The notes beneath the pieces were generated by a model that worked only from the letters and a program-made list of their open reading frames with translations, searched no databases and was not told where the DNA came from. This document shows, piece by piece, positions 36,094 through 48,581 of a DNA stretch of 64,000 nucleotides (position 1 is the stretch's first letter; the number at the start of each line of letters is the position of its first letter). The stretch is from Leptotrichia sp. oral taxon 212 (GTDB taxonomy: Bacteria > Fusobacteriota > Fusobacteriia > Fusobacteriales > Leptotrichiaceae). A program made the position numbers and the translations under genes. The stretch is taken from positions 310,001-374,000 of the forward strand of contig NZ_CP012410.1 of the NCBI RefSeq assembly GCF_001274535.1, in the 5' to 3' direction.

Positions 36094-36109
36094 CTGTCAA
36101 ATTTGACAG
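36094..36109. promoter_or_regulatory. Perfect palindrome CTGTCAAATTTGACAG
   Basis: A 16-bp perfect palindrome between the small secreted protein gene and a terminator, 165 bp before the methyltransferase. Possible operator; no evidence beyond its symmetry. Confidence 0.35.
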
Positions 36110-36144: not shown

Positions 36145-36258
36145 ATATTGATTTTAAAATGAGGTAATGTTAAAATCATTTTATACGGTCAGCAGCGTAT
36201 CTGTTAAAAAATTAAATTTTTGTATACACTTAAATAGTTACAATAAGGAGGGAAACTG

Positions 36259-37026
36259 ATGGGAATAAAGAAAAACTCTGAAAATGAAAAGATAAGAAAA
36301 AGCGTAGATGAATTTTATAGAAAGATTTCGCAGGATCAATACAGGACAGAGGTTTCTCCTGAAGAAGTGAGTGCGTCCCTTGGATATAGTAGTGAAATGA
36401 TGGAACGGCTGCCGAAAGGAACGGATCTTGGACTTTCGTGCGGAAATCCTCTTGAAAATTTTGAGATGGAAAATGGGGAAACACTTATAGATTTAGGATG
36501 TGGAACAGGAAAAGACTTATTTCTTACAAGGATAAAGTATCCTGATTCAGGGATTCTTTATGGACTGGACAGATTAGCTGAAATGATATTGAAGGCTGAA
36601 AAAATAAGAGATATGAAGAAGTTTAAAAATATTGAATTTAAGCAGGGAACACTTACATCAATGCCATTTGAACCAGAAAGTATGGATAAGGCAATAAGCA
36701 ACTGCGTAATAAACCTTGAGCCGGAAAAACAGACTGTATATAACGAACTTTATAGAATATTGAAAAATGGAGGGAAGTTCTATATTTCAGATATTATGCT
36801 TAAAAAGGAATTGCCGGAAGAATGGAAAAAATCTGAGAAAATGCACAATACATGAGTTGGAGGGGCACTTCTGGAAGAAGAACTGGAAAAGATAATAGAA
36901 AAGGCAGGATTTAAAAATATAATTATTTTAAAAGATGAAGTTACGGATGCCTATGCTGAAAAATGGGGATATGGTTTAAAAATAAAGGAATATATTCAAA
37001 GGGGAATGATTATGGGTAAAAAATAA
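36259..37026 (+). CDS. ArsM-like SAM methyltransferase, candidate selenoprotein (UGA at codon 199)
   Basis: Class I methyltransferase of the arsenite-methyltransferase group: LGLSCGNPL, then the SAM loop LIDLGCGTGKDLFL, SNCVINLEPEKQ and GGKFYISDIML. After residue 198 comes an in-frame TGA (36853-36855), and the same frame continues for 56 sense codons, giving VGGALLEEELEKIIEKAGF, the normal ArsM C-terminus. In ArsM proteins the residue before (V/I)-(G/A)-G-A-L is a conserved Cys, so the UGA stands exactly at a catalytic Cys. Full length would be 255 residues. Alternatives are a nonsense mutation or a 198-residue truncated protein. The N-terminal Cys pair of classic ArsM is missing, so arsenic may not be the substrate. 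AAGGAGG precedes the ATG. Confidence 0.72.
36868..36880 (+). promoter_or_regulatory. Candidate bacterial SECIS hairpin
   Basis: CTTCT-GGA-AGAAG forms a 5-bp stem with a GGA loop. The loop begins 18 nt after the UGA, inside the 16-37 nt range reported for bacterial SECIS elements, and its first base is G, as required. The outer stem is weak. Confidence 0.45.
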
Positions 37027-37059: not shown

Positions 37060-37746
37060 ATGAAAAAGAATGAAATGATGATTTGCGGCAAAAAATGTAT
37101 TCTGTATTTAAACGAAGATACAGAATATATACTGATACAGCCTGTGGATGAAAATGATATCAGTGTACTGGATAGTGAAGTGAAGCACATAGAAGAAAAT
37201 GCAGACAGGAATTTTAGCCTTGTGGCGTTTAAAATAGAAGACTGGAACAGCGAACTTACTCCATGGGAAATGTCCCTTCTTCGAGGAAAAGGGAACTTTG
37301 GAGATGGCGCTGCCGGAACATTGGAATTTATAAAAAATGACCTGATACTGGCTGTGTCAGAATATATAAATATTGAAAATAAAGAGATAAAGTATATTTT
37401 AGGTGGGTATTCACTGGCAGGGCTGTTTTCATTATGGAGCGGATATCAGACGGATATTTTTGAAGGAATAGCTGCAGTTTCTCCGTCAGTCTGGTATAAA
37501 GGATGGATAGAATACGTGGCAGCTGGAAAACCTTTATCAGAAAAAATTTATCTGAGCCTCGGAGATACAGAAGAAAAAACAAAACATCAAATTTTATCTA
37601 AAATAGGCGATAATATAAGAAAACAGCATGAAATTCTTGAAAAATCAGAAAATGTGAAGACAGTTCTTGAATGGAATGAAGGAAATCACTTTCAAAATCC
37701 TGATATAAGAACTGCAAAGGGATTTCTGTGGGTGATGAATAAATAG
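37060..37746 (+). CDS. Esterase-like alpha/beta hydrolase
   Basis: 228 residues, cytoplasmic. The nucleophile Ser lies in ILGGYSLAGLFSLW (G-x-S-x-A-G, esterase D-like), the acid Asp is likely in LSLGDTEEK, and the His in WNEGNHFQNP. The pattern resembles small esterases of the YbbA/Fes type. It follows the methyltransferase by 33 bp with AGGAGG, so the two are probably co-transcribed. The substrate is unknown. Confidence 0.75.
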   Translation: MKKNEMMICGKKCILYLNEDTEYILIQPVDENDISVLDSEVKHIEENADRNFSLVAFKIEDWNSELTPWEMSLLRGKGNFGDGAAGTLEFIKNDLILAVSEYINIENKEIKYILGGYSLAGLFSLWSGYQTDIFEGIAAVSPSVWYKGWIEYVAAGKPLSEKIYLSLGDTEEKTKHQILSKIGDNIRKQHEILEKSENVKTVLEWNEGNHFQNPDIRTAKGFLWVMNK

Positions 37747-47546: not shown

Positions 47547-48581
47547 ATGATTATAATGCAAAGTTATGAAAAATTAACGGAAAAAATAAAAAAAGGAAGA
47601 AAACTTTTATTTATTGATGTAAGAAGTCCTTCAGAATATAGAGAGGCAAGAATACCTGGAGCAATAAATATACCTGTATTTTCAGATAAGGAAAGGGAAT
47701 ATATCGGAACACTCTATAAAGTGGAAGGAAAAAGAACGGCAATAAGGGAAGCGGTAGGAATTGTAGGTGAAAAAATACAGGATATATATATTGAATTTGA
47801 AAAACATTATGAGAGAGATATGGAAATTATAGTATATTGTGCAAGAGGGGGTATGCGTTCATCAACTGTTGTCTCCCTTTTTAAGGAATTTTCATTGCCT
47901 GTCATAAAACTGGAAAATGGCTATAAAGGCTATAGACAGTTTTTAAATGATAATCTCCCGAAAATGCTTAAAGAAAAAGAATTTGTTGTTCTATATGGAA
48001 AAACTGGATCGGGAAAAACAAACATACTGAAGGAAATAGAACAAAAAGGATATGATGTGCTTGATCTTGAAAAATGTGCCAATCACAGAGGTTCGCTGCT
48101 AGGTGGGATAGGTCTTGGAGGAGATACCACACAGAAAAATTTTGAAGCCCGTGTACTAGACAGTATATTGAAATCCCAATCAGATGTAATATTTACAGAA
48201 GGAGAAAGTAAGAGAATAGGTAGTGTTATTATGCCGAATTATTTATTTGAAGTTATTTTTGGGGCAAGAAAATTTTTCATAGAAACAGACATGGACAAAA
48301 GGATTAAAATAATCAGTGAGGAATATCTGAAGGAAAGCTATGATGAAAATGAAATTTTTGAAGCACTTGAAAAACTTGCAAGATATATTGGTGAAAAAAA
48401 GAAAAATGAATATGTAGAAAAGCTGAAAAATAAGCAATTTGATGAAGTGATAAGGGATCTTATGGAAAATTACTATGATAAGGTGTACAAGACAAAAAGC
48501 CATACTTTCGAGAAAACATTTGACAATGTAGATGAGGAAAAGTGTGCTGAAGATATAATAAAATATGTATTTGGAATATAA
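47547..48581 (+). CDS. mnmH: tRNA 2-selenouridine synthase MnmH (SelU)
   Basis: 344 residues. Rhodanese domain with the catalytic Cys in IVYCARGGMRSS (about residue 98), then a P-loop domain GKTGSGKTNILKEI and ANHRGSLLGG. It replaces sulfur by selenium at wobble U34 of tRNA-Lys, -Glu and -Gln, using selenophosphate. Its presence implies SelD and a selenium-using cell, which supports reading the UGA at 36853 as selenocysteine. GGGG-A6 spacing before the ATG is good. Confidence 0.94.
   Translation: MIIMQSYEKLTEKIKKGRKLLFIDVRSPSEYREARIPGAINIPVFSDKEREYIGTLYKVEGKRTAIREAVGIVGEKIQDIYIEFEKHYERDMEIIVYCARGGMRSSTVVSLFKEFSLPVIKLENGYKGYRQFLNDNLPKMLKEKEFVVLYGKTGSGKTNILKEIEQKGYDVLDLEKCANHRGSLLGGIGLGGDTTQKNFEARVLDSILKSQSDVIFTEGESKRIGSVIMPNYLFEVIFGARKFFIETDMDKRIKIISEEYLKESYDENEIFEALEKLARYIGEKKKNEYVEKLKNKQFDEVIRDLMENYYDKVYKTKSHTFEKTFDNVDEEKCAEDIIKYVFGI

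Follow-up and report, generated by a model that had tools for sequence, protein, structure and literature searches.

An ArsM-type methyltransferase gene of Leptotrichia with a probable selenocysteine codon at an arsenic-ligand position

Arsenite methyltransferase containing selenocysteine (Sec) is a published selenoprotein, recorded in 39 organisms (PMC5029168 Table 3) and included among selenoproteins also in PMC9312934; Sec-ArsM with the motif UxxG, exemplified by WP_011987699.1, has likewise been described (PMC13188914, crediting Fomenko and others 2007). In the Cys-containing enzyme CmArsM, Cys72, Cys174 and Cys224 bind As(III) (PMC5552862), and Cys156 and Cys206 of human AS3MT are confirmed as As(III)-binding (PMC3877260). 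Here we describe a gene from Leptotrichia sp. oral taxon 212, lying in a stretch of 64,000 nucleotides (the window; contig NZ_CP012410.1, positions 310,001 to 374,000), that very probably encodes a Sec-containing ArsM-type methyltransferase, one that would bind and methylate trivalent arsenic through Sec199, Cys61 and Cys149.

The gene opens with an ATG at 36259 and closes with a TAA at 37024-37026. It contains a single in-frame TGA, such that the standard-code ORF ends at 198 amino acids and read-through gives 255 codons. This agrees with a first-pass annotation of the sequence, which had noted an in-frame UGA at codon 199 followed by 56 further codons. A standard gene call that stops at the UGA yields a 198-amino acid protein without the third metal ligand, and the enzyme would then be overlooked or labelled as broken. 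The features of the locus are as follows.

36245..36252, + strand: ribosome-binding site AAGGAGGG, read from the sequence.
36259..37026, + strand: predicted gene for a Sec-containing ArsM-type methyltransferase, 255 codons plus TAA, assigned from domains, alignment with structures, a model and fold matches.
36439..36441, + strand: codon for Cys61, equivalent to CmArsM Cys72, from structure-based alignment and comparison of homologues.
36703..36705, + strand: codon for Cys149, equivalent to CmArsM Cys174, from structure-based alignment and comparison of homologues.
36853..36855, + strand: UGA codon 199, predicted to be read as Sec, equivalent to CmArsM Cys224, from alignment and homologues.
36856..37023, + strand: the 56 codons 3' of the UGA, under strong purifying selection as judged by dN/dS.
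36868..36880, + strand: short SECIS-type hairpin CUUCU[GGA]AGAAG, weak by itself, assigned from its position and from covariation over Sec forms.

A Pfam search of the 255-codon product returned class I methyltransferase domains. The best NCBIfam model was NF008823, arsenite methyltransferase, at 212.4 bits, which is below its cutoff of 263; the next were three ArsM-related selenoprotein models. The protein is placed as a relative within the Sec-ArsM group, outside NF008823 proper. An AlphaFold2 model built on a 31-sequence alignment had a mean pLDDT of 94.2, and its 13 best fold matches were all ArsM or AS3MT structures, with moderate TM-scores (0.57-0.65). Both a SAM-dependent methyltransferase domain and an ArsM-like fold, as expected of the ArsM/AS3MT family, were therefore found. 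When the protein was aligned to solved structures, Cys61 corresponded to CmArsM Cys72 and Cys149 to Cys174, and UGA199 fell exactly on Cys224, just as the annotation had proposed in placing the UGA at a conserved ArsM Cys; the protein thus keeps each of the three As(III) ligands, as C61, C149 and U199. The annotation had also held that the N-terminal Cys pair of classic ArsM is absent, and this proved correct in part: the cluster of the CmArsM Cys44 region is missing, but the Cys72 equivalent, C61, is present.

Across 47 homologues, the position equivalent to residue 199 is occupied by Sec (UGA) in 30 and by Cys in 17, and thus by Cys or Sec in every homologue compared; two remote matches, L098 and L099, in which the key position was unreadable, are left out. 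Orthologues with the UGA, which the annotation had suggested seeking in sister species, are present in related genera: among 40 relatives, G015 (74% identity) and G003 (about 40%), both members of the same family, carry it at the same codon as the window gene. Within 98 genomes of the phylum, strong UGA-bearing matches came only from these two and from some ArsM-DUF2284-like genes. The gene is present in 10 of 15 genomes of the family of Gemella cuniculi (UGA in 8, Cys in 2), and of 391 genomes sampled from the class to which the Ezakiella genome belongs, 14 carry UGA forms.

In a tree of these genes, some deep joins of which involve long branches and are uncertain, the window gene and its G015 counterpart group next to those of the Gemella family, whereas the copy in G003 falls in a separate clade with Ezakiella and Fenollaria. 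Since the two lie in different clades, it is likely that the gene entered this family (Leptotrichiaceae) by transfer at least twice. Horizontal transfer has apparently carried the lineage of the window gene from one phylum to another. The two Cys forms of the Gemella family, G504 and G098, branch from within the Sec forms, the pattern that Sec-to-Cys changes would produce, and such natural Sec/Cys pairs allow a direct test of what advantage selenium brings to arsenic methylation. Many Sec forms (L101, L103, L105-L109, L057 and L077-L083) have a Cys two residues before the Sec, in CTU or CGU, which is possibly a selenenylsulfide partner; the window gene has NTU and lacks this Cys. The ArsM-like genes of the order-level relatives L061-L064 carry Sec in WFQUEGG, with Ser at the Cys174 position, and L062 has a second UGA, located in its DUF2284-like part.

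When the window gene was compared with G015, the 56-codon tail beyond the UGA gave a dN of 0.078 and a dS of 1.71 (dN/dS about 0.05), and the codons before it, which are less constrained than the tail, a dN of 0.20 and a dS of 1.45; dS is close to saturation in this comparison and the ratios are accordingly rough. Even so, the pattern of substitution makes it evident that the tail is translated.

In almost every Sec form, a stem with a GGN or AGUU loop lies behind the UGA, some 20-29 bases from its U. The mean stem in Sec forms was 6.6 bp, compared with 3.8 after synonymous codon shuffling, and in Cys forms 3.8 bp, compared with 3.5. Among GGN-anchored stems, 81 of 90 positions pair over 15 distinct sequences, whereas 10,000 partner shuffles gave 44 on average and never more than 71; the anchoring rule is independent of pairing, and the shuffle disregards relatedness. 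Most stem positions in the Sec forms show several Watson-Crick pair types. The window stem is 5 bp long, and where its innermost pair is U-A, G015 has C-G, so that both sides differ. A SECIS-type hairpin behind the UGA is thus found at the level of the group, with covariation; the window copy by itself is not significant.

The genome contains a single cluster of selA, selB, yedF, selD and tRNA-Sec with anticodon TCA (G000:C1, about 2,065,760 to 2,071,352), so that selA, selB, selC and selD, which the annotation had left to be searched for, are all present. The selD gene has an in-frame UGA of its own, in the context CGGUNSK, at a position that we equate with the catalytic Cys of the SelD family. 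There are also three strong matches to GrdB (glycine reductase type), one of which, read through a UGA, shows STUGTCTRC. Formate dehydrogenase was rejected as the genome's reason for having Sec, no match to it being found in the genome, which has the GrdB-like genes instead. A tRNA-Sec was detected in 24 of the 26 UGA-form genomes and in 7 of the 16 Cys-form genomes (p 0.0009, a value overstated because the eight genomes of the Gemella family do not count as independent), and it is retained in both Gemella-family genomes with a Cys form. MnmH (tRNA 2-selenouridine synthase), from which the annotation had argued that the organism probably makes selenophosphate, is confirmed at 47547-48581 of the window, and its presence makes it likely that selenophosphate serves tRNA in addition to Sec.

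Taken together, comparison of sequences strongly supports Sec decoding at UGA 199, whereby the short hairpin 3' of the UGA at 36853 would direct SelB, bearing Sec-tRNA(Sec), to insert Sec199 and give the protein of 255 amino acids. One could argue that the UGA is instead an ordinary nonsense mutation or a sequencing error, leaving a pseudogene or a 198-residue protein, in line with the end of the standard-code ORF and the weakness of the window hairpin. However, 30 of the 47 homologues share the UGA at this codon and the rest have Cys, the tail is conserved at a dN/dS of about 0.05, and the Sec machinery is complete. All this speaks against the idea, as does the original argument that chance would hardly place a nonsense mutation here; the pseudogene reading is rejected on grounds of conservation, and we regard the explanation as a whole as very improbable. 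A frame that stays open through the UGA would also suit another amino acid, for example Trp, inserted through an altered code or leaky read-through. Homologues without the UGA carry Cys and never Trp, though, the genome has tRNA-Sec and the Sec machinery, and further UGAs lie at known Sec positions (SelD and GrdB), so that we give this idea almost no credence. Nor did we find what the annotation had named as telling against Sec, namely a genome without the machinery, or relatives lacking the tail or carrying a residue other than Cys.

No ars gene lies beside the methyltransferase gene, which stands alone. Searches covering two arsenic efflux genes, Acr3 and ArsP, found neither in this genome, nor in the tested Leptotrichia-type relatives and Gemella genomes. 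Among more distant Sec-ArsM genes, those of L071 and L075 have an ArsR-family gene immediately 5' of them, and L079 has the order ArsR, SBF/Acr3-type transporter, ArsM. In the gap 5' of the window gene is a perfect 16-base palindrome, CTGTCAAATTTGACAG (36094-36109), followed by a terminator-like hairpin and a T run. Its single further match in the window is weak and no more than chance would give, and it is possibly an operator or a piece of the upstream terminator region. An ORF of the same orientation (37060-37746), which has an AGGAGG of its own and only a sub-threshold esterase-like match, begins 33 bases 3' of the gene and is possibly co-transcribed with it. The Cys-form gene of G504, a Gemella-family genome, lies immediately 3' of selA (L100:73-2250), a possible link to selenium metabolism. 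In Gemella cuniculi (L054:946-3741), the gene comes after one for a CobW-type GTPase that contains a CFCC motif and one for an aquaglyceroporin-type (MIP) protein, and the same GTPase lies ahead of it in L101, L103 and L109.

By homology, the product would be a SAM-dependent class I methyltransferase that binds and methylates trivalent arsenic at Cys61, Cys149 and Sec199. The Sec would stand in for the ArsM/AS3MT Cys that is both arsenic ligand and redox-active, and probably helps ligands to exchange or the active site to be reduced again. Since the gene is alone and Acr3 and ArsP were not found, we infer the arsenic role from this homology and from the ars operons around more distant Sec-ArsM genes. 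The same absence in the tested genomes, together with the position 3' of selA in G504, would fit an enzyme into which Sec is inserted but whose main substrate is antimony, selenium, another metalloid or chalcogen, or a small thiol. Set against this are the three retained As(III)-ligand positions, a best family and fold that are those of ArsM, and the ArsR and SBF/Acr3-type genes adjoining more distant relatives, and we consider such a substrate unlikely. It is similarly doubtful that the window gene, G015 and the Gemella-family clade form a selenoenzyme for a task other than detoxification, whether methylation of selenium or soft metalloids or production of a methylarsenite weapon, an idea prompted by the lack in these bacteria of the arsenic efflux genes tested. 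The interpretation of the gene as a Sec-ArsM, first put forward in the annotation, is supported as a whole.

The published Sec-ArsM of the NF008823 type shares with the window gene an ArsM domain, one Sec and the UxxG motif (here UVGG), but the window gene scores below the cutoff and has neither the N-terminal Cys cluster nor ars neighbours. CmArsM and human AS3MT are Cys forms whose structures have been solved; they have the same methyltransferase fold and three arsenic-ligand positions, whereas the window protein has Sec as third ligand, no Cys44-type N-terminal Cys and a shorter C terminus. NF041536 (ArsM/DUF2284), NF041537 (ArsM/AhpD) and NF047649 (MTase/UXPK-star) also have Sec in an ArsM-like domain with UxxG; they carry an extra domain or a second Sec, unlike the single-domain, one-Sec window protein, and the DUF2284-type genes compared have Ser at the Cys174 position (SNSV) in place of its Cys149. 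The suggestion that the gene represents a distinct subfamily finds weak support, in that the N-terminal Cys cluster is missing but Sec at this ArsM position is already published. In PMC5029168, PMC9312934 and PMC13188914, the clade of the window gene and the Gemella-family genes is not mentioned. Sec-ArsM is therefore an already known kind of enzyme, and what is modestly new is its sub-cutoff lineage, here and in Gemella, that lacks the N-terminal Cys cluster.
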